Below, in pieces: positions 5,505-30,060 of a DNA stretch of 40,829 nucleotides (position 1 is the stretch's first letter; the number at the start of each line of letters is the position of its first letter). The notes below the pieces were generated by a model. It had not been told where the DNA came from. It saw nothing but the letters and a program-made list of their open reading frames with translations, and ran no database searches. Origin of the DNA: Gammaproteobacteria bacterium (GTDB lineage: Bacteria; Pseudomonadota; Gammaproteobacteria; UBA4575); contig JABDMD010000009.1 in the NCBI GenBank assembly GCA_013001685.1, positions 1 through 40,829 on the forward strand, written 5' to 3'. A program made the position numbers and the translations under genes.

Positions 5505-6242
5505 TTAGTTTAAGCTTTGCTCACCTTCGGCAACTCCGCATAATGCATCATGATCTAGGATTGATATTTTTTTTCTATTAGCATCTATAATTTTATTATC
5601 TTTGAATCTAGAAATTAATCGGCTTACTGTTTCATCTGCAAGACCTAAGTAGTTTCCAATGTCATATCGGCTCATGGTGAGATCAAATTCATCGGCCGAA
5701 TAACCGCGTGCCTTAAATCTACCAGAAAGATTTATAAGAAAGGTTGCTAATTTCTGCTCTGCATTACGTCGCGCTAGCAACATCAACATTGTATGGTCTT
5801 TAGTAATCTCATTACTTATCAAACTGAGTAATTGTTGTTGTAAGCCAGGAATTTTTACGCACAAAACATTTAGATCACCTATTGGAAGCTCACATATTGT
5901 AGCCGTGTCTAGCGCAACACCAGAACAGCTATGGATTTGGTTATCCATTCCATCGAGACCAAGGATTTCACCAGGGAGATGAAAACCTAAAATTTGCTCT
6001 TCACCATTTTTAGCAGTGGTGAATGTTTTAACTGAGCCAGAACGAACTGCATATATACAACCAGACTTTTCTCCTTGGCTAAAAATGTTTTCATTTTTAT
6101 GTACCAGTCTGCGCTGCTGAATTATATCATCTAAGGTACTCAAATCGCTATTATTGAGACCCCTAGGCAGGCAAAGCTCTATTAATGAACAGTTTTGGCA
6201 CGATGCTTTTAGGGACTTAAAATTTACTTTTTGCTCATTCAT
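5505..6242 (-). CDS. fnr: FNR/Anr-type oxygen-sensing transcription regulator
   Basis: A 245-residue Crp-Fnr family protein. The N-terminus carries CQNCSLIELC (Cys15, Cys18, Cys24), which matches the FNR spacing CxxCx5C. A fourth cysteine, Cys106 in IHSCSG, matches the position of E. coli Cys122, so all four ligands of the oxygen-labile [4Fe-4S] cluster are present. The cyclic-nucleotide-like beta-barrel follows, then the dimer helix and a winged helix-turn-helix whose recognition helix reads DETVSRLISRF. The E-SR residues are those that read the TTGAT half-site. It should therefore dimerise under low oxygen and bind TTGAT-N4-ATCAA. It is transcribed away from the GST operon, and FNR-like motifs in the shared upstream region suggest autoregulation as well as control of neighbours. 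Confidence 0.92.
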   Translation of the reverse strand: MNEQKVNFKSLKASCQNCSLIELCLPRGLNNSDLSTLDDIIQQRRLVHKNENIFSQGEKSGCIYAVRSGSVKTFTTAKNGEEQILGFHLPGEILGLDGMDNQIHSCSGVALDTATICELPIGDLNVLCVKIPGLQQQLLSLISNEITKDHTMLMLLARRNAEQKLATFLINLSGRFKARGYSADEFDLTMSRYDIGNYLGLADETVSRLISRFKDNKIIDANRKKISILDHDALCGVAEGEQSLN

Positions 6243-6425: not shown

Positions 6426-6467
6426 CTGATATGGATCAGCACATTCTTTAATGTGCATTAGTAGTCT
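6426..6467 (+). promoter_or_regulatory. Candidate FNR-type promoter of the GST-AlkB operon
   Basis: A symmetric palindrome CTGAT-ATGG-ATCAG (6426-6439) differs from the FNR consensus only at the two outermost bases. A weak -10-like hexamer TAGTCT (6462-6467) sits at the same 34.5-base distance from its centre as in the sirB2 and cco promoters. The start would be near 6474, giving a leader of about 110 bases before the first GST gene. Confidence 0.48.
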
Positions 6468-6587
6468 GCATTCCATGCATTCTTGTTAAGCAGCTTTTTT
6501 CCATAGAAAGAATATGGAATAGTAAATTAGAGCTACGCAAGTCCTTACACAATTTGAGCAACTGCAGAATAAATTACGGAGTTAATT

Positions 6588-7184
6588 ATGGGTCTATTTA
6601 GTAAATCGAAAGCAAAAGTAAGTGAGACACCAAAGCTAAAATGCATGTCTGGTGATGTTTCGTCATATAAATGTTTATTTTTAGCCTCTTATAGAAAAAT
6701 CCCTGTTGAAATCAAATGGGAAGAGGCGTCTATTCTCGATGACAAAATGTCTGAGTCACTGAAAATGTCTAATTTAAATCGTTATCCATGCATAGAAGAT
6801 GGTGATTTTACTGTATGTGGTGAGCACGCAGTGATGACCTATCTAAATATAAAGGGCCGCACTCCAACAATACATCCAAGAAAAGCAAGAGTACTTGCTA
6901 TGCAGCAATATTGGATTCAAGCATTAAAAACAAAGTTTACATCGCAAGTAGAAGACCAGGGTGCTGTTGTACTAGGTGTTTTAGATAAAGTTCTTACAGA
7001 TCAGAAATATATTGTCGGAGAATTTTCACTAGCGGATATACATTGGGCTGCTGAATTTAAAGTTCTCGAAGATAGTGGTAAAGCTTCTATTTTCAACAAA
7101 TATCAAAACATTACCGACTGGTTAGCAAGGATTAAAACAGAAATTCCTGATTTTGATGTAAAGAGTGAAAAAGTTGCTGCATAG
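6588..7184 (+). CDS. Glutathione S-transferase-like protein 1
   Basis: A 198-residue protein that fits a GST architecture. The N-terminal thioredoxin-like half (about 16-88) has the KLKCMSGDVSSYKCLF start, a YPCIEDGDFTVCGEHAVMTYL segment where GSTs have the cis-proline and the Ser/Glu that binds glutathione, and an all-alpha C-terminal half. The C-terminal half contains YIVGEFSLADIHWA, the GST N-capping/hydrophobic-staple-like region, and a closing W-LARIK helix. It has more cysteines than usual (Cys19, Cys28 and others), so a redox or chaperone role is possible. It is the first gene of a four-gene operon and its neighbour is a paralogue. A CGGAG site precedes the ATG. I see no signal peptide. 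Confidence 0.72.
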   Translation: MGLFSKSKAKVSETPKLKCMSGDVSSYKCLFLASYRKIPVEIKWEEASILDDKMSESLKMSNLNRYPCIEDGDFTVCGEHAVMTYLNIKGRTPTIHPRKARVLAMQQYWIQALKTKFTSQVEDQGAVVLGVLDKVLTDQKYIVGEFSLADIHWAAEFKVLEDSGKASIFNKYQNITDWLARIKTEIPDFDVKSEKVAA

Positions 7185-7218
7185 GTTTTTAAAGATTAAC
7201 GGAGATAGGTAAATAGTT

Positions 7219-8013
7219 ATGACTGATTTATTTGAATTAATGGCAGAGAAATCTGGTTTAAAAGAAGATGCTAAATATGGCGCATCTGGCGACATGAAGA
7301 AAACACAATATGTGTTAGAGCTTATTGGTAGTCCGGCTGATCCAGATACACTTAAATGCATTATCACTTCTGCTGAACAGGGTATGGAAATGAATTGCTA
7401 TAGCACAGTTACTGACGGTGTAAGTAATCTCGATGAATGTATTTCTGAGCTATCGCCGCTTTCTATTACTCCGTGCTTAAAAGAAGCAGATTTCTATACC
7501 TGCGGTGCTGATGCCATTACAGCATTTACAGATGCAAGAGGCTTGGGTTATGCGTTAACACCTCGCAATGCTGCGCTAGCAGCCATGCAAAATTATTGGG
7601 TAGATATTGCAGTTACAAATGTGGCACCTCATGTGAAGCTAATAACGGATGAGGTTTTCGTAAAAAATTATAGCGATCCATCATATTCTGCAGATATGCA
7701 AGTAGTTAATACTGCAAATGAGGATTTAAAAATATTTTTTGATGCTTTGAATCAACAACTAGAGGGAAACAAATATATTGTCTGCGATAAATATACCTGG
7801 GCGGATCTTCACTGGTCAGCTTATGTGCATCTGTGTGAGATTGCTGGTTGCAATTCATTAATTGATGAAAGAAAGAATGTTAAAGATTGGTTTAACCGCA
7901 TAAAAACACGAAAAGCACAATGCGGACAAGATGAAGTTGCATTCGACATGATGCCAAGTACAGAGGAAGCTAAGCAAGGCAAATTAAGGTCAGTAGTTAT
8001 TAACAACTACTAA
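7219..8013 (+). CDS. Glutathione S-transferase-like protein 2
   Basis: A 264-residue divergent paralogue of the preceding gene. Aligned blocks include TPCLKEADFYTCGADAITAF (compare YPCIEDGDFTVCGEHAVMTY), RNAALAAMQNYWV (compare KARVLAMQQYWI), KYIVCDKYTWADLHW (compare KYIVGEFSLADIHW) and VKDWFNRIKT at the end. It carries an extra N-terminal stretch, an inserted region around residues 145-170 and a longer C-terminal tail. It is rich in cysteine. It may form a heterodimer with protein 1. The gene lies 34 bases after the first GST gene and 43 before alkB-like, all on one strand, so cotranscription is very likely. The exact glutathione-binding residues are not evident, so catalytic activity should not be assumed. 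Confidence 0.68.
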   Translation: MTDLFELMAEKSGLKEDAKYGASGDMKKTQYVLELIGSPADPDTLKCIITSAEQGMEMNCYSTVTDGVSNLDECISELSPLSITPCLKEADFYTCGADAITAFTDARGLGYALTPRNAALAAMQNYWVDIAVTNVAPHVKLITDEVFVKNYSDPSYSADMQVVNTANEDLKIFFDALNQQLEGNKYIVCDKYTWADLHWSAYVHLCEIAGCNSLIDERKNVKDWFNRIKTRKAQCGQDEVAFDMMPSTEEAKQGKLRSVVINNY

Positions 8014-8056
8014 ATAGTTAAAAAAATAATAGTAAATTTTTAGCGAGGATAAAAAA

Positions 8057-9244
8057 ATGCACAAGTTTTTAGTAAATATTCGGTACTTTGAGACTCCAAT
8101 ATTAATTTTCGCCACGTTGGTGGGTCTTGTTATTGGCGGTCCATGGGTGTGGACAGGTGTAGTACTCTTAATAGCGTCCATCATCATCGACTGGGCAACC
8201 AGTGCTAGCAAGCTTTTTCATTGTGAGCCAGCTGGCAGAGATGAAAATGGTGATTTATATGGAATAGATTGGTTTTTGAAACTGATGATGTGGGTGCAAT
8301 ACCCAGTATTTGTCATGCTTCAACTTGCGCTTGTCTGGCGGGTTTATGAATTTGCAACAGGAAACTCATTTGGTCCAAATGAAATTTTCGGAATCACCAT
8401 TCACCATGGTGTAACTGGGTGGGAGATGTTTGGTGCAACCGTTTCAGCAGGTATTTACATGGGTCTTGGTATTATGTTTGGACATGAGCTTGCACATACT
8501 AAAGGTCCAACATTTGTATTAGCCCGTTGGATGATGGCTTTAAGTGGCATCGCGCATTTCTGTTATGCGCATGTTTACAACCATCATTTAGAGTTGGGTT
8601 GTGAAGATGATCCTGCAACTTCACCTAGAGGTCGCAATATCTATAAGCACTATTTGCTTTCACACTTTGGTCAATCACGATTTTTATATGTGATGGAACA
8701 ACAGCGTCTAAAGAAAATAGGTGTGCCTTTTATCTCATGGCAAAATCGTTGGATACGCGGTTATGCGATGAGCCTTCCAACCATTTTCATGTTTTGGTTT
8801 GCAGCAGGGTGGATTGGTTTAGGTGTAATGATAGGCTCTTGGGTGATTTCTGCATTTGAATTAGAAGTGCTTAATTATTTAGAGCACTACGGTCTAATTC
8901 GTGAAAAAGGGCAACCGATTGATTATCACCATTCATGGGATGTAGCAGAATCTCCATTTACACAATGGGGATTTATTGAAATTGGTCGCCAAGCGGACCA
9001 CCATGATAGAGGAGAAACTCATTTTTGGGAGTTAGAAGATTGCGGTGCTCCAGATACAGGTTACGGTTATTACGCAATGCTTGCGCTGCTTCTTGTACCA
9101 CCAGCTTGGGAGCGGTTTATTAAACCGCGCCTAGCAGATTGGGATGAAAATAGAGCCAGTGAGGGTGAGCGCAAAATTGCAGCACGAATGAACTATCTCG
9201 CAGGCTGGTATGACATGCCTTTGTGTGACAAACCAATTAAATAA
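8057..9244 (+). CDS. AlkB-like membrane di-iron monooxygenase/hydroxylase
   Basis: A 395-residue integral membrane protein of the alkane-hydroxylase/fatty-acid-desaturase superfamily, near the AlkB family length. Histidine motifs appear in the AlkB order: HELAHTK (His143-His147), AHVYNHHLELG (His172, His176, His177), the HYG motif NYLEHYGLIR (His277) and QADHHDRGETHFW (His315, His316). Several hydrophobic helices lie between. The HYG motif favours AlkB-type over soluble desaturases. The second box deviates from the usual EHxxGHH, so the enzyme is divergent and the substrate (n-alkane, fatty acid or another lipid) is open. No rubredoxin gene is present in the window. It sits after two GST-like genes and before a small membrane protein, with GCGAGGA ribosome sites in front of both this gene and the next. 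Confidence 0.82.
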   Translation: MHKFLVNIRYFETPILIFATLVGLVIGGPWVWTGVVLLIASIIIDWATSASKLFHCEPAGRDENGDLYGIDWFLKLMMWVQYPVFVMLQLALVWRVYEFATGNSFGPNEIFGITIHHGVTGWEMFGATVSAGIYMGLGIMFGHELAHTKGPTFVLARWMMALSGIAHFCYAHVYNHHLELGCEDDPATSPRGRNIYKHYLLSHFGQSRFLYVMEQQRLKKIGVPFISWQNRWIRGYAMSLPTIFMFWFAAGWIGLGVMIGSWVISAFELEVLNYLEHYGLIREKGQPIDYHHSWDVAESPFTQWGFIEIGRQADHHDRGETHFWELEDCGAPDTGYGYYAMLALLLVPPAWERFIKPRLADWDENRASEGERKIAARMNYLAGWYDMPLCDKPIK

Positions 9245-9274
9245 TTTTTAAAAATTAAAAGCGAGGAAATACTA

Positions 9275-9487
9275 ATGTCAAAAGTTCAACAAGCATTGTT
9301 AGCTATAGTAGCGTTTACTGGTGTAACTGGGTTTATACTCTATACATTAGGAGTAGGTGATCATCACTTTAATCCACTATGGGCGCTTGGTACCTCTATC
9401 GTCTTTTTAGTAATTTTACTAATTGATGTTTGGATGTTTTTTGCAATCTCAGGTGAAGATGCGTTTAAGTGGGACTCGGAAGCTTGA
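9275..9487 (+). CDS. Small two-helix membrane protein of the AlkB-like operon
   Basis: A 70-residue protein with two predicted membrane helices (about residues 6-25 and 35-57) separated by a short loop containing the metal-ligand-like GDHHFNP. It has an acidic cytosolic tail (GEDAFKWDSEA). It begins 30 bases after alkB-like with the same AGCGAGGA ribosome site and is the last gene before a strong terminator. It may be a subunit or stabiliser of the AlkB-like enzyme. No known family was recognised. Confidence 0.72.
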   Translation: MSKVQQALLAIVAFTGVTGFILYTLGVGDHHFNPLWALGTSIVFLVILLIDVWMFFAISGEDAFKWDSEA

Positions 9488-9511
9488 TGGTGGTTTAGAA
9501 CAATTGCTAAT

Positions 9512-9544
9512 AAAAACCGCAGTATTAATTACTGCGGTTTTTTT
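9512..9544 (+). terminator. Rho-independent terminator of the GST-AlkB operon
   Basis: A perfect 13-base-pair stem (9512-9524 paired with 9530-9542, loop TTAAT) has CCGCAG in its core and runs into a T tract ending at 9544. It starts 25 bases after the stop of the two-helix protein, so it closes that operon and separates it from the cco promoter. Confidence 0.92.
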
Positions 9545-9585: not shown

Positions 9586-9627
9586 TTGATTTGAATCAAT
9601 AAATACATCAATTAATTTCTATATAGT
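9586..9627 (+). promoter_or_regulatory. FNR-dependent promoter of the yip1-ccoNOQP operon
   Basis: The sequence TTGAT-TTGA-ATCAA (9586-9599) is a perfect match to the FNR/Anr consensus. A -10-like hexamer TATAGT lies at 9622-9627; a start near 9634 puts the palindrome centre at -41.5, the textbook class II activation position. No good -35 hexamer is visible, as expected for an activator-dependent promoter. Anaerobic or microaerobic induction of cbb3 oxidase by FNR/Anr is well known in proteobacteria. Confidence 0.82.
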
Positions 9628-9673: not shown

Positions 9674-10288
9674 ATGCAAAGTGCATTCTCACCACGTTTA
9701 ATGTTACGGCTACTGTTTCAGCCAAATATTGTTTTTAAAGAATTGGCTGAATTGGAACCGTCATCCATAGCAGTGTTTTTCAAAGTTGCCCTATGGTTCG
9801 GTGTGTTACCACCACTTTTTGCTTATATTGGTGCTTCGAAATTTGGGTGGCGCTTGGGTACCGTCGAACCACTATCTTTACAAAAAGAGATTCTTTTAAG
9901 CATCAGTGTTGCTTACTTTATCGCATTATTATTTGGGTTTATTAGTGCTGCAATTGTGTCACGTTGGATGGCGAATACATATGGAGCTCGACAATCACTT
10001 GGAATCCATTTTGCAATGATTACGGTTGTTGGTGCACCGATTGCAGTAGGTAGCATTGTGCACTTATATCCAAATGTCTTTATAAATGTTCTTGTACTGA
10101 TACCTGCTTTGCTATGGAGTATGTACTTACTTTATCGAGGCTTGCCCATCGTGCTACATACAACACCAGAACGTGGAATGTTGATGTCGTCATCTTTGAT
10201 TGGTTATTTGTTAGTAGCATTTGTTAGCTTATTGGGGATAACTGTATTTTTATGGATTAATGGCATAGGTCCCTTAATGGGAGTTTGA
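9674..10288 (+). CDS. Yip1/DUF1282-like membrane protein
   Basis: A 204-residue integral membrane protein with about five hydrophobic segments. It starts with a short amphipathic region followed by [17 protein letters not shown], the typical Yip1-family opening (a P-x3-F-x-E/L motif before the first helix). Yip1-type bacterial proteins have no agreed function. Here the gene is first in the cco operon, directly behind the FNR promoter, and its stop lies just before the ccoN start, so it is cotranscribed and probably translationally linked with ccoN. This suggests a role in oxidase biogenesis, but that is inference. Confidence 0.75.
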
Positions 10289-21110: not shown

Positions 21111-21923
21111 TTAAAAAACAGAAGAACTTAATTCGTTCACTGCGACGAGCATTTCGGCATCGTCGGTTAGTGCTTGAGAAATGCAACTTGAGCATGCGGT
21201 TACCGGGCTTACGCCAGTCACGATTAATTTTCCTGCATGCACCAATAAGCGCGTACTCGCGCCTTCATCTAAACCACTGCCTTTCAAGTTACGAGTCATT
21301 TGTGCAAACTTAACTAATAGTTTGGCGGTGTTTGTGTCGACATCAGTTTCTTTTTCTACAATTTTTTGTTCGGTGCTGGCATCAGGATAGTCAAACTCCA
21401 ATGCTACAAATCGTTGACGAGTACTTTGCTTCAAATCTTTCAAAACACTTTGATAGCCAGGGTTGTAGGAAATTGCCATACAAAAATCTTTAGGTGCTTC
21501 TAAAAGCTCGCCGAGTTTTTCCATCGGTAAAACGCGTCGGTCATCACAAAGAGGATGGATTACCACAGTTGTGTCTTTTCGTGCTTCGACAATTTCATCT
21601 AGATAACAAATGCTTCCTGCACGCACTGATCGTGCAAGTGGGCCATCCACCCAAACCGTTTCTCCGCCCGTGACTAGATAACGTCCAACCAAATCTGATG
21701 CAGTTAAATCATCGTGACAGGAGACCGTGATTAGTGGACGTTTTAATTTCCAACTCATATATTCCATGAAGCGGGTTTTGCCACATCCGGTTGGGCCTTT
21801 CAGCAATACAGGTAATTGATTGGAGTAGGCCGCTTCAAAAATATCAATCTCACTGCCTACAGGCTCGTAATAAGGCTCTTTTTCAACAAAATATTCTTCC
21901 GGTTTAAACGATTTGGCTTGCAT
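21111..21923 (-). CDS. CbbQ/NorQ-type AAA+ ATPase (MoxR family)
   Basis: A 270-residue MoxR-type ATPase with the CbbQ/NirQ/NorQ layout. Walker A is [10 protein letters not shown] (about residues 38-47). [16 protein letters not shown] is the family-specific block. Walker B is [11 protein letters not shown] (about 104-114), followed by the sensor region [11 protein letters not shown] and an arginine-rich [11 protein letters not shown]. Such ATPases work with a VWA protein (CbbO/NorD) to activate metal enzymes, for example Rubisco or NO reductase. No CbbO or NorD gene lies in this window, so it is an orphan here. It is divergent from aprM across a 306-base gap, and only the broken gene lies downstream. 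A role in maturing AprBA or another enzyme is possible but unproven. Confidence 0.87.
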
Positions 21924-22229: not shown

Positions 22230-23084
22230 ATGTTATCAATAAATCCTTTCGCAGAACTTTCGGCTGTAATTTCGCCCTCAATTATACAGGGGTACATTGT
22301 ACTTATGTTCATTATGGTTATCGGTGGCACGATTCTCGATATGTTGCACAAAAAGAGTGCTAAGTACTTTTTTGAAAATGCTGAAAAAGCAAAAAAGAAT
22401 GCTAAGCGTACTTTAAGTGGTGGCGAAAAAGCATCACTTGCAGTTGCAACAGTGGCTAATGAGGTTTTAACCTCGGGCGAATTTGCATGCAGGCCAAGTC
22501 GTCGCTATTCTCATCTGCTGACGATGTATGGTTTCATTATTTTTATTGTAACCACCGTATGGCTGGTTTTTGGTTACACACCTCAAATTGAACCTGCACC
22601 AAAAGCATTGACTGCTTTGTGGCACATCGGAGCACTCATGCTGTGTCTGGGTGGTTACTGGTTCTGGTTTTTCATCCGTGTAGACGTCTCTTCTGAAGGC
22701 GTAAAGTGGTACAACTTCAACGGTCGCGGTGACATTTTCATCGTCTCTCTGATTACTATGGCTACTTTTGCATTACTGTGGTCCGGTACACTGGCTAGTG
22801 GTGGCATACTGAACATGATTTTCTTGGTGTTGTTCATTGCGTGTAGCACGATCCTGTTCAGTACAGTTTTTTGGTCCAAATTTGCCCACATGTTTTTCAA
22901 GCCCGCTGCTGCTTACCAGAAGAAGCTCATCAAGGCGGACGGCTCATATGAGAATCTGCCTGAGCTAGGAGAGCTTTCTGATCCTGCCTTACAAGCAAAA
23001 TTTCCGGATATCCCGGAATATATGGGCAACAATCCACCTAACATGGGGCTTGGAATCAAGAGCGAAGCCCCGCGCCATTTTTAA
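22230..23084 (+). CDS. aprM: APS reductase membrane anchor AprM
   Basis: A 284-residue membrane protein with about six helices. It has a cytosolic loop rich in Lys and Ala between helices 1 and 2 (KSAKYFFENAEKAKKNAKRT) and a helix-rich core related to respiratory cytochrome b/DsrM/QmoC-type membrane subunits, with FACRPSRRYSHLLTMYGF and TALWHIGALMLCLGGYWFW (quoted in parts). The hydrophilic tail ends in NNPPNMGLGIKSEAPRHF. It lies directly upstream of aprB and aprA, which is the aprMBA order of many phototrophic and chemotrophic sulfur oxidisers. AprM is proposed to anchor AprBA to the membrane and pass its electrons to quinone. Histidines in the core could bind haem, but this is not certain from sequence. 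Confidence 0.87.
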   Translation: MLSINPFAELSAVISPSIIQGYIVLMFIMVIGGTILDMLHKKSAKYFFENAEKAKKNAKRTLSGGEKASLAVATVANEVLTSGEFACRPSRRYSHLLTMYGFIIFIVTTVWLVFGYTPQIEPAPKALTALWHIGALMLCLGGYWFWFFIRVDVSSEGVKWYNFNGRGDIFIVSLITMATFALLWSGTLASGGILNMIFLVLFIACSTILFSTVFWSKFAHMFFKPAAAYQKKLIKADGSYENLPELGELSDPALQAKFPDIPEYMGNNPPNMGLGIKSEAPRHF

Positions 23085-23120
23085 TTTATATCCGTAACGA
23101 ATTTTAGAGAGAAAAATATT

Positions 23121-23603
23121 ATGCCAACTTTCGTATATATGACTCGCTGCGATGGCTGTGGACATTGCGTAGATATCTGCCCTTCAGACATCATGCATAT
23201 CGACACAACTACTCGACGTGCTTATAACATTGAGCCCAACATGTGCTGGGAGTGTTACTCCTGTGTTAAGGCTTGTCCTCACAACGCGATAGACGTTCGA
23301 GGTTATGCAGACTTTGCTCCATTGGGACACTCAGTGCGAGTAATCCGTGATGAAGAAAAAGGTGTTATAGCTTGGCGCATCAAGTCTCGCAACGGTAAAA
23401 AAGATATGAATCTGCTAGCGCCGATTACCACAAAGCCTTGGGGTAAGCATATTCCTCAATTATCTGAAGAGGCTGCTCCAAGTAAAGAAATGAAGGACAG
23501 TCAATTACTTTTTAACGAGCCAAAATATATTCGTCTGGATGACGGAGATATACACACGCTAGAGTCTAACGGCTTGGAGATGAAAGAAGGGGTGTACTAC
23601 TAA
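23121..23603 (+). CDS. aprB: Adenylylsulfate reductase beta subunit
   Basis: A 160-residue iron-sulfur subunit. Two [4Fe-4S] motifs are present: CDGCGHCVDICP (Cys10 onward) and CWECYSCVKACP (about Cys42 onward). A C-terminal tail (PWGKHIPQL to EMKEGVYY) embraces AprA in known structures. It passes electrons from the AprA FAD to the membrane partner. The stop overlaps the aprA start by one base (TAATG), so translation is coupled. A GAGAGAAAAAT ribosome region precedes the ATG. Confidence 0.96.
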   Translation: MPTFVYMTRCDGCGHCVDICPSDIMHIDTTTRRAYNIEPNMCWECYSCVKACPHNAIDVRGYADFAPLGHSVRVIRDEEKGVIAWRIKSRNGKKDMNLLAPITTKPWGKHIPQLSEEAAPSKEMKDSQLLFNEPKYIRLDDGDIHTLESNGLEMKEGVYY

Positions 23604-25486
23604 TGGGCTACAAAACTATTGTCGAAGACGATATCGATATCCTAGTTGCTGGTGCTGGCATGGCCGGCACGGGTGCAGCTTTTGAAGCAAGATATTGGGG
23701 TCAGGATAAGAAAATTGTTATTGCCGAGAAGGCTAATATCGATCGTTCCGGTGCGGTGGCACAGGGTTTATATGCGATTAACACGTATATGGGAACTCGT
23801 TTTGGTGAAAACAATCCTGAAGATCATGTACGTTATGCGCGCATCGATTTGATGGGAATGGTTCGTGAAGATTTGCTGTTCGATATGGCACGTCACGTGG
23901 ACTCAGCTGTACATCAGTTTGAAGAATGGGGTTTGCCACTAATGCGCGATCCTAAGACAGGCGCGTATCAGCGTGAAGGTCGTTGGCAGATTATGATTCA
24001 CGGTGAGTCTTATAAGCCTATCGTTGCGGGTGCTGCAAAAAAATCGGCAGACGAAATATTCAACCGTATTTGTGTAACGCATCTATTAATGGATGATGCA
24101 AAAGAAAACCGCGTAGCGGGTGCAGTTGGTTTTAATGTGCGTACCGGCAACTATCACGTATTCAAATCCAAAACTGTTATCTGTGCTGCCGGTGGCGCCT
24201 CGAATATCTATAAGCCTCGTTCAGTTGGTGAAGGTGCGGGTCGTGTTTGGTATGCGCCGTGGTCATCGGGTTCAGCGTATGGCTTGATGATTAGTGCAGG
24301 CGCGAAAATGACGCAAATGGAAAATCGCATTGTATTGGCGCGTTTCAAGGACGGTTACGGTCCTGTTGGCGCGTATTTCTTGCATCTCAAAACCTACACT
24401 CAGAATGGTATGGGTGAAGAGTATGAATCAAAGTGGTGGCCGCAACTCCAAGAGATGGTAGGTAAGGAATACCTGGATCCAGAAGCTTCGCATGCTACGC
24501 ATCGTCCCATTCCGACTTGTCTTCGTAACCATGCATTTATTTCAGAAGTAAATGCTGGTCGTGGTCCAATTCACATGGTGACTATGGAAGCGTTCCAAGA
24601 TCCTCATCTAGAAGAGATCGGTTGGCACAACTTCTTAGGTATGACGGTTGGGCAGGCAGTTCTGTGGGCAGCTACTGATGTAGATCCTAAGTACGAGAAT
24701 CCTGAGCTCACTACATCTGAGCCTTACGTAATGGGCTCACACGCTACAGGCTGCGGTGCTTGGGTGTCAGGTCCAGAAGATTTATCACCTCCAGAATACT
24801 TCTGGGGCTACAACCGAATGACTACTGTTGAAGGTTTGTTTGGTGCCGGTGATGCTGCTGGCGGCACGCCACATGCATTCTCATCCGGTTCATTTACTGA
24901 AGGTCGCTTGGCTGCAAAAGCTGCTTGCCAGTACATTGATGATGGTAAGGCGGAAGGCATCAAAGTTTCTCAGCAGCAGATCGATAAGCGTCGTGAAGAA
25001 ATTTACAAGCCTATGGAGCATTACAAGATTTATCGTAATGAAATTACTGCAGGAAGTGTTAACCCGAACTACATTAACCCACGTCAAGGACTTGATCGCT
25101 TGCAGAAGTTGATGGACGAATACGGTGGTGGTGTAACCGTTAGTTACATGACTAATGAAAAACTACTTAACATTGGTCTGAAGAAAATGAAAGCTTTGGA
25201 AGAGGACCTTGAGAAGATAGCTGCAGAAAACATCCATGAACTACTTCGTGCCTGGGAGCTTAAGCATCGTACTCTCGCCTCTGAAGCCGTCTTGCAACAC
25301 ACTTTGTTCCGTAAGGAAACTCGTTGGCCAGGTTACTACTACCGCGGTGACTTCATGAAGGTGGATGATCAGAACTGGCATGTACTGACTGTTTCTCGTC
25401 GTGATCCAGAAACCGGTGAGTACACGATGGAAAAAGCACCTTGCTATCACTTAGTCGGTGATGAAGAGAAAAAGGCTGCTGCTTAA
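23603..25486 (+). CDS. aprA: Adenylylsulfate reductase alpha subunit
   Basis: The 627-residue catalytic flavoprotein of dissimilatory APS reductase, at the family length. The FAD-binding Rossmann start is DILVAGAGMAGTGAAFEARYWG (about residues 11-32, quoted in part by GAGMAG). A second FAD segment is LFGAGDAAGGTPHAFSSGSF (about residue 408). Family blocks include CLRNHAFISEVNAGRGPIHM, YENPELTTSEPYVMGSHATGCGAW and HVLTVSRRDPETGEYTMEKAPCY (quoted in parts). In sulfur oxidisers it joins sulfite and AMP into adenylylsulfate (APS). Because dsr and sat genes lie elsewhere, direction is inferred from the aprM linkage and the aerobic context. Codon use is biased to C-ending codons, which suggests high expression. 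A hairpin terminator follows. Confidence 0.97.
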   Translation: MGYKTIVEDDIDILVAGAGMAGTGAAFEARYWGQDKKIVIAEKANIDRSGAVAQGLYAINTYMGTRFGENNPEDHVRYARIDLMGMVREDLLFDMARHVDSAVHQFEEWGLPLMRDPKTGAYQREGRWQIMIHGESYKPIVAGAAKKSADEIFNRICVTHLLMDDAKENRVAGAVGFNVRTGNYHVFKSKTVICAAGGASNIYKPRSVGEGAGRVWYAPWSSGSAYGLMISAGAKMTQMENRIVLARFKDGYGPVGAYFLHLKTYTQNGMGEEYESKWWPQLQEMVGKEYLDPEASHATHRPIPTCLRNHAFISEVNAGRGPIHMVTMEAFQDPHLEEIGWHNFLGMTVGQAVLWAATDVDPKYENPELTTSEPYVMGSHATGCGAWVSGPEDLSPPEYFWGYNRMTTVEGLFGAGDAAGGTPHAFSSGSFTEGRLAAKAACQYIDDGKAEGIKVSQQQIDKRREEIYKPMEHYKIYRNEITAGSVNPNYINPRQGLDRLQKLMDEYGGGVTVSYMTNEKLLNIGLKKMKALEEDLEKIAAENIHELLRAWELKHRTLASEAVLQHTLFRKETRWPGYYYRGDFMKVDDQNWHVLTVSRRDPETGEYTMEKAPCYHLVGDEEKKAAA

Positions 25487-29086: not shown

Positions 29087-29413
29087 ATGGTGCATAAGTT
29101 AGTTCAAAAACATTTATTGTATGGTAGACGAGAATTTGAGTTACGTGATGATATTGTCAAAATTAAAGTCAATAGCCTGCTGGATGAAAATAAAGATTTT
29201 GAAGTTGAGTTAGCTATGATCAACCCTGATCCCATTATCAGCAAGTCGAGGTTGGAGTTCCATAGTCGTGTGAAGTGTAGGCCGCTAATATCTCTGTATT
29301 TGAATAAGCCTAATGCAGAAGAATTTAACGCCTTTGTAGATGCGTTGAAAACAAAAGCAAAAAATGAGTTTGATGCATTTGCAGGAATAAAGAATTTGGA
29401 AAAATCTGCGTGA
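29087..29413 (+). CDS. Hypothetical protein, short tandem paralogue
   Basis: A 108-residue soluble protein that aligns over its whole length with the N-terminal half of the next gene product. Shared blocks are KLVQKHLLYGRREFELRDD (next: KLTQKHLLKGTCEYEIVGD), MINPDPIISKSRLEFHSRV (next: VLNPEPVITRSHLEFVSRV) and PLISLYLNKPNAEEFNAFVDALKTKAKNEFDAF-G (next: PLLSLALSRPNVTEFNDFVNTLKQKAQEEYNAISG). The pattern is beta-rich first and helical at the end. The stop overlaps or abuts the next start, so the pair is coupled. No family was recognised; it looks like a recent tandem duplication of a domain. Confidence 0.78.
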   Translation: MVHKLVQKHLLYGRREFELRDDIVKIKVNSLLDENKDFEVELAMINPDPIISKSRLEFHSRVKCRPLISLYLNKPNAEEFNAFVDALKTKAKNEFDAFAGIKNLEKSA

Positions 29414-29415
29414 TT

Positions 29416-30060
29416 ATGAGTACCAAACTTACTCAAAAGCATTTGCTCAAGGGTACATGTGAATACGAGATCGTTGGCGATCAGGTTCATGTGAACATTA
29501 AGTCTAGCTTTAAAAAAGAAAAAAAAGAAATGCTTAGCGTTACGCTTGCTGTGCTCAATCCCGAGCCCGTGATAACACGATCACACCTTGAGTTTGTAAG
29601 TCGCGTGAATGGTGAGCCATTGTTATCTCTGGCTTTGTCCCGCCCTAACGTGACTGAATTTAACGACTTTGTTAACACGCTTAAGCAAAAGGCGCAGGAA
29701 GAATACAATGCTATTTCCGGGATGAACGTCACGGCTATACCTACTGCACTTAATGGTAATTTATATGAAGATCCGCCCGAATTCGTTGAAGTTTCTCCAG
29801 TAAATATTAGCAAAGGTAAAAACATCAACGTTGAAGGACTTGAGAATGCAATTAGGATGTTGGAAACGTATGTAGATAATGAAGAAATTCGACCCTTAAT
29901 TACTACCTTAGAGTCCCTCAAACAAGCTCCGCAAGACCACTCGAGGTTGGTAGAGCTCTCCACAGTATTTAATGAACTTGGAGCTAGCCAGGGCGCAGTT
30001 TTAACCTACGCACCCTATATCACGATCATACTTTCAGATGATCCGTTTGGTTCAGGGTAA
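29416..30060 (+). CDS. Hypothetical protein, long tandem paralogue with C-terminal extension
   Basis: A 214-residue protein. Residues 1-100 are the same domain as in the preceding gene. Residues about 101-214 add a proline/acidic linker (NLYEDPPEFVEVSP) and a helical domain (GLENAIRMLETYVDNEEIRPLITTLESLKQ, AAFNELGASQGAVLTYAPYITIIL, quoted in parts). The extension has no obvious relative. An alternative GTG at 29410 adds two residues; the ATG at 29416 is the better start. The protein is probably cytosolic, and hetero-oligomers with the short paralogue are likely. Confidence 0.75.
   Translation: MSTKLTQKHLLKGTCEYEIVGDQVHVNIKSSFKKEKKEMLSVTLAVLNPEPVITRSHLEFVSRVNGEPLLSLALSRPNVTEFNDFVNTLKQKAQEEYNAISGMNVTAIPTALNGNLYEDPPEFVEVSPVNISKGKNINVEGLENAIRMLETYVDNEEIRPLITTLESLKQAPQDHSRLVELSTVFNELGASQGAVLTYAPYITIILSDDPFGSG

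Follow-up and report, generated by a model that had tools for sequence, protein, structure and literature searches.

The AlkB-like operon and its proposed role

What does a membrane di-iron protein of the AlkB kind do in an operon with two glutathione S-transferase (GST)-like proteins? The question is raised by a 40,829-nucleotide stretch of gammaproteobacterial DNA (hereafter the window; contig C15 of a 2.64 Mb genome in 192 contigs, 99% complete), whose genes point to a sulfur-oxidising host. Four co-directional open reading frames of 198, 264, 395 and 70 amino acids, separated by 34, 43 and 30 bp, encode two GST-like proteins, the AlkB-like protein and a small membrane protein. On balance we slightly favor a membrane di-iron monooxygenase with the AlkB-like protein as its catalytic subunit and with dimethyl sulfide (DMS), or a closely related methylated sulfide, as the substrate that it demethylates to methanethiol. 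The computed basis is the AlkB fold, the clade's separate position and its fixed His-to-Gln replacement, conserved partner genes and linkage to methanethiol oxidase (MtoX); from these we infer the substrate and chemistry of the family. DMS is a less sure substrate for the window copy than for the family, because the window copy does not lie beside mtoX.

An AlkB fold with an altered iron ligand

The AlkB-like gene (8057..9244, + strand) encodes a putative membrane di-iron oxygenase that matches Pfam FA_desaturase (8.7e-25). The credible sequence matches in the PDB were to AlkB alone (phmmer; 8sbb, 5e-26; 8f6t, 6e-24). A structure model built from 33 clade members (pLDDT 81, pTM 0.85) aligns with 8f6t over 358 residues (VIA Z 37.0, root-mean-square deviation 2.7) and with 8sbb_A (VIA Z 34.3). 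Foldseek gave TMq values of 0.74–0.76. The protein has the AlkB fold, including the transmembrane helices and the cytosolic histidine domain. VIA rows at Z 13 and below were set aside, since helical proteins reach such scores by chance.

In a tree of 94 rows, the 77 clade members formed one group with support of 100/100 on a long stem, with limited outgroup sampling and long branches flagged. The AlkB-like protein grouped neither with the characterised alkane hydroxylases nor with XylM, and the window-type members made up a 16-row clade of their own. The initial annotation had taken the protein for a divergent di-iron enzyme outside the characterised alkane hydroxylases, which the tree bears out. 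It had named tight grouping with those enzymes, and GST-like genes not conserved beside the gene, as the outcome that would speak against it; the clade is separate and GST genes are kept.

In FtAlkB, two irons are bound by nine histidines held to be invariant and indispensable, and box 3 reads HxxHH (PMC10110569). Eight of these nine are retained in the clade. The first His of box 3 is replaced by Gln (Q312; HxxHH to QxxHH) in 77/77 clade rows, and is His in 17/17 outgroup rows. A new His six residues past H316, H322, was present in 76 of the 77 clade rows. The motif boxes HELxH, HxxxHH and NYxEHYG are retained. The initial annotation had described a changed second box and an intact third: box 2 is indeed altered (E to A, G to N) and keeps all of its histidines (H172, H176 and H177), and it is box 3 that is not intact. 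The model is weak at Q312 and H322, with a predicted pLDDT of about 51 for residues 311–330. The protein is AlkB-like in fold, yet it is not AlkB by the ligand rule, because Q312 replaces the box-3 His while eight ligands stay; the di-iron site departs from a rule held invariant for AlkB. Placement of the family as an ordinary alkane hydroxylase was ruled out by the tree and the iron-ligand change. The clade signature GRQ[AG]DHHDRGETHFWEL is usable as a marker.

Distribution and linkage to methanethiol oxidase

A scan of the genome collection for the clade gave 78 loci. The hosts, mainly sulfur-oxidising and DMS-degrading gammaproteobacteria, include close kin of the window (75–95% identity), Thiodiazotropha and other lucinid symbionts (68–70% identity), a Thiohalocapsa metagenome-assembled genome (MAG), Piscirickettsiaceae MAGs, Porisulfidus sponge symbionts and marine lineages with genomes of roughly 1 Mb. 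Methylophaga thiooxydans and M. sulfidovorans were the only cultured named species with a clade gene. Many genomes carry 2–5 paralogues, and the window genome has three. In the class sample, the clade was present in 13 of 369 gammaproteobacteria at a cut of about 48% identity.

Genes of the SBP56 (MtoX) family were found in 29 of 30 clade genomes. All 13 clade genomes of the class sample carried one, versus 38 of the 356 others (Fisher 1.6e-12, a value that ignores kinship). Because kinship is ignored in that figure, the test within a single genus matters: among 24 Methylophaga species, the AlkB-like gene occurred in 2, and SBP56/MtoX in exactly these 2 (p = 0.0036). The phylum sample of 398 genomes held no clade member besides the window genome and added nothing to this test.

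The linkage extends to operons. L107-type operons run in the order AlkB-like protein, ferredoxin, GST, reductase, small protein, FadL, MtoX and a SCO1/MauG fusion (MtoX maturation), and the MtoX of this type scored 693 bits against the NCBIfam methanethiol-oxidase equivalog (cut-off 650). At locus L050 (genome G121), mtoX starts less than 1 kb past the small-protein gene. The window genome encodes its own MtoX at L192:2696-4075 (NF052453, 754 bits; cut-off 650), adjoining MtoX-maturation genes and formylmethanofuran-type (tetrahydromethanopterin, H4MPT) one-carbon genes, the latter assigned by eye. Formate dehydrogenase-like genes, also assigned by eye, lie beside the MtoX and one-carbon cluster in the sister genome G044. 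The AlkB-like family is thus linked to methanethiol oxidase by both genome content and operon structure. A small SCO4226-like protein (cluster c108; L122:15851-16132 and L192:7994-8266) was also seen to recur near an AlkB-like operon and an MtoX cluster.

Published expression data from Methylophaga thiooxydans

Kroeber and Schaefer (2019; PMC6548844) compared M. thiooxydans grown on DMS with cells grown on methanol and found both MtoX proteins up on DMS, along with a 'fatty acid desaturase' (MDMS009_226), an 'NAD(P)H flavin reductase' (MDMS009_61), a FadL-like porin (MDMS009_906) and catalase. The authors read MDMS009_226 as lipid maintenance. The first DMS enzyme of the species was not found in that study, and homologues of DmoA and DMS dehydrogenase were absent from the six Methylophaga studied (PMC6548844).

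The published MtoX gene MDMS009_211 lies at 256503-257906 of scaffold 1104571000268 (PMC6548844). On contig C25 of M. thiooxydans, MtoX is at exactly 256503-257906 and the AlkB-like gene is 8 kb away at 247672-248847. Since the published tags for the mto-cluster genes of that scaffold are all under 300, MDMS009_226 and MDMS009_61 very probably lie on it too. The genome encodes only two PF00487 proteins, the other one being on a different contig (C9), and we infer that MDMS009_226 is the AlkB-like gene. A FadL-like porin gene lies about 5 kb from the second mtoX of M. thiooxydans (L197:16046-17254); it is probably the DMS-induced MDMS009_906.

Operon layout and partner genes

GST-like protein 1 (6588..7184, + strand, 198 aa) and GST-like protein 2 (7219..8013, + strand, 264 aa) both scored above the Pfam cut-off for the C-terminal domain (GST_C, 1.3e-7 and 1.1e-8), with the N-terminal domain below the cut-off or unseen, and residues 33–233 of the second matched solved GSTs at 6e-10. 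The 70-aa two-helix membrane protein (9275..9487, + strand) had no Pfam match. A putative Rho-independent terminator follows at about 9512..9542 (+ strand; 13-bp stem, T tail, fold −18.1 kcal/mol, z −5.87). The initial annotation's four-gene unit with a strong terminator is therefore confirmed in its reading frames, spacing and hairpin. A promoter of its own, likewise proposed, did not emerge: a sigma-70 scan gave nothing beyond shuffle expectation.

The search for co-occurrence across genomes that had been suggested found a GST gene in 15/16 window-type loci and the small two-helix protein in 14/16, and small-protein homologues also adjoin the AlkB-like gene in other operon types as a conserved partner. 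Window-type loci usually have two GSTs instead of one. Homologues of GST-like protein 1 were found at loci L055, L088, L037, L041, L057 and L095; nearly every window-type locus keeps a GST-like protein 2 homologue next to its AlkB-like gene, and in M. sulfidovorans (L199) this homologue sits between the mto cluster and the AlkB-like operon. The GST-like proteins frequently retain a conserved Cys. A chance or artefactual origin of the gene set was ruled out, as the set recurs across many genomes.

Other subclades add to this core a Fer4_19 4Fe-4S ferredoxin, a 2Fe-2S/FAD reductase, a truncated globin and a FadL/TodX porin, and contig C12 of the window genome carries a ferredoxin-GST-reductase-small protein set. 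Methylophaga operons have a divergent pair of NorQ/NorD-type ATPase and VWA proteins. The window also encodes a CbbQ/NorQ-type MoxR ATPase (21111-21923, − strand) that is 64% identical to the one divergent beside the Methylophaga AlkB-like operon, and because of this identity a role of the NorQ-like ATPase in oxygenase maturation is worth testing. In contrast to the desaturase-type locus of Polaromonas, the conserved neighbourhoods showed no recognisable gene for an alcohol dehydrogenase, an aldehyde dehydrogenase or a CoA ligase.

Several other genes were observed near clade members. Porisulfidus-type genomes (L074:14985-17441; L083, L086, L124) encode a second AlkB/desaturase-domain protein of ~820 aa with a weak GlnE-like part, which in L083, L086 and L124 adjoins a YcaO cyclodehydratase. 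Also recurrent in AlkB-like neighbourhoods are a flavoprotein that resembles acyl-CoA dehydrogenases and has distant similarity to SfnB, DszC and FadE16 (L208:15121-16284, − strand; L050:4954-6141, − strand; L122:20196-21140) and, at L208 and L050, a PAS sensor kinase; either is a possible further component or regulator. Elsewhere in the window, two tandem and apparently paralogous reading frames at 29087-30060, one of 108 aa and one of 216 aa that has an additional part, belong to no family that was recognised.

Probable oxygen-responsive regulation

Divergent to the operon lies a gene for a predicted FNR-type [4Fe-4S] oxygen-sensing regulator (5505..6242, − strand; NCBIfam PRK11161 Fnr, 271.9 bits, cut-off 228), with four Cys spaced like FNR cluster ligands (C15-X2-C18-X5-C24, plus C117). 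An FNR-box-like palindrome, CTGATATGGATCAG (6426..6439, + strand), has two mismatches and lies 162 bp before the first gene; alone it is not beyond chance, since 0.45 sites of this quality would be expected in the intergenic stretch. Palindromes of the window type are also present in the near relative L055, at −161 and −101. L037, L041 and L057 carry TTGATNNNNATCAA sites, perfect or with one mismatch, that lie either upstream of the AlkB-like gene or on the fnr side; those upstream of the AlkB-like gene at L037 and L041, which are more distant family members, are perfect. The fnr neighbour is retained in the window's own family only, at 6/16 window-type loci. FNR control, as first annotated, stands on the regulator and the sites of relatives and not on the window box by itself; because relatives carry such sites and fnr is kept in that family only, it is likely for the window's family of organisms but not for the whole system.

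At 9586-9599 of the window, TTGATTTGAATCAA forms a perfect FNR box upstream of a gene for a Yip1-domain protein and a cbb3 oxidase operon that starts at 10285 (assigned by eye). As the window paralogue adjoins fnr and the cbb3 oxidase operon, its expression probably takes place under low oxygen, in zones where oxygen comes into contact with sulfide, methanethiol and DMS. FNR control of an O2-using enzyme would then not be contradictory: at a sulfidic interface, a microaerobic consumer would need a high-affinity oxidase plus an oxygenase.

Proposed mechanism and alternatives

In the proposed scheme, the reductase and then the ferredoxin would carry electrons from NADH to the di-iron site, where one methyl group of DMS, or of a close methylated sulfide, would be hydroxylated with O2. 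The hydroxymethyl product would split spontaneously to methanethiol and formaldehyde. MtoX would then oxidise the methanethiol, H4MPT-type enzymes and formate dehydrogenase would burn the formaldehyde, and sulfur-oxidation enzymes would consume the sulfide. The GST-like proteins may use glutathione to deal with the thiol or formaldehyde that is formed. The small two-helix protein may belong to the oxygenase as a structural subunit, and NorQ and NorD may help to load or activate the metal site.

Several points weigh against DMS demethylation. A di-iron site with Gln may not function as a hydroxylase. Assays of M. thiooxydans grown on DMS detected no DMS monooxygenase activity, after which a methyltransferase was put forward (Boden 2010, cited in PMC6548844); such assays could lose a membrane enzyme, which is an excuse and not evidence. 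The identity of MDMS009_226 comes from tag ranges and not from a record, and because cells that grow on DMS are also exposed to sulfide, the induction cannot be pinned on DMS itself. Few partner genes lie near 40 of the clade loci, most of which are PS1-like or Porisulfidus-type paralogues. The window copy is one of three paralogues, away from mtoX, and paralogues may differ in substrate.

The last point leads to the improbable case that the pathway is shared and the substrate is not, with the window paralogue (GST1-GST2-AlkB-small protein under FNR) taking, say, dimethyldisulfide or methanethiol itself. The three paralogues, and a window-type clade that usually has two GSTs instead of one, would fit this; the partner sets overlap, however, and show no sign of substrate divergence. 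Another reading is an inorganic-sulfur oxygenase that oxidises hydrophobic elemental sulfur, polysulfide or glutathione persulfide, with FadL importing S8 and the GST-like proteins carrying sulfane sulfur on glutathione. Most named hosts are sulfur oxidisers, aprM/aprB/aprA-like genes (assigned by eye) lie at 22230-25486 of the window, the conserved Cys of the GST-like proteins is often retained, and a sulfide oxygenase activity, its gene unproven, was measured in M. thiooxydans (PMC6548844). We nevertheless consider an inorganic substrate unlikely: persulfide dioxygenases are the published candidates for that activity (PMC6548844), known AlkB-fold enzymes act by C-H hydroxylation, the operon link is to methanethiol oxidase and not to inorganic sulfur genes, and among the 24 Methylophaga the gene is confined to the two mtoX-bearing species.

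That same strict MtoX association makes it doubtful that the enzyme oxidises a small hydrophobic alkane or alkene. The AlkB fold would suit such a substrate, and the operons hold both a FadL/TodX porin for its entry and GST-like proteins that might open an epoxide, as IsoI does in isoprene degradation; but an invariant AlkB iron ligand is changed, the conserved neighbourhoods hold no recognised alcohol or aldehyde dehydrogenase or CoA ligase, and the gene is kept in ~1 Mb genomes. Least credible is a lipid desaturase or hydroxylase that mends or adjusts membranes after H2O2 is released by methanethiol oxidation, as the authors of PMC6548844 read MDMS009_226. The Pfam label and the induction together with catalase agree with it. 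The fold and sequence are those of AlkB (Z 37), the close matches include no desaturase, a dedicated ferredoxin, reductase and porin are encoded in sister operons, and the gene is absent from the other 22 Methylophaga, most of which have a separate PF00487 protein. Lipid hydroxylation or desaturation, which the initial annotation had suggested, is therefore not supported, the conserved company being ferredoxin, reductase, FadL porin and methanethiol oxidase and not lipid genes; its last alternative, a sulfur-related chemistry, is the one that the evidence favors.

Among the biogenic sulfur gases of the ocean, DMS is the main one. Ever since a methyltransferase was put forward for Methylophaga with no gene behind it, the enzyme for the first step of DMS degradation there has been missing (PMC6548844, PMC9563715). 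DMS demethylation by the AlkB-like family would supply a concrete candidate gene set for this missing marine sulfur-cycle enzyme and would predict which marine bacteria consume DMS.

Comparison with known systems

A literature search of open-licence papers for AlkB-like enzymes that act on DMS, or for sulfur oxidisers with an AlkB-GST system, found nothing beyond PMC6548844, which is not proof of absence. The gene system is a variant of the AlkB kind for which no earlier description was found, in agreement with the initial annotation. DmoA of Hyphomicrobium converts DMS to methanethiol (PMC13360808), the reaction proposed here for the AlkB-like family. DdhA, Tmm and DsoB are likewise DMS-consuming enzymes. 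To our knowledge, none of DmoA, DdhA, Tmm and DsoB is a membrane histidine-rich di-iron protein. The MtoX (SBP56) cluster is shared in that some clade operons contain or neighbour mtoX, with its SCO1/MauG maturation protein; MtoX itself acts on methanethiol, the next step, and no AlkB-like partner was described for it in the literature searched.

XylM, the xylene monooxygenase of pWW0, belongs to the AlkB superfamily and is encoded with a 2Fe-2S reductase partner. It is about 28% identical, falls on a separate branch and retains the box-3 His. AlkB of Fontimonas thermophila (8f6t, 8sbb) resembles the AlkB-like protein in predicted fold over nearly the whole chain and in the HELxH, HxxxHH and NYxEHYG boxes, at 23–24% identity. 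The electron donor of AlkB is rubredoxin; the sister operons of the clade carry a Fer4_19 ferredoxin and a 2Fe-2S/FAD reductase (no genome-wide search for rubredoxin was made). Unlike AlkB, the clade has QxxHH in box 3, the added H322, and GST and small-protein partners.

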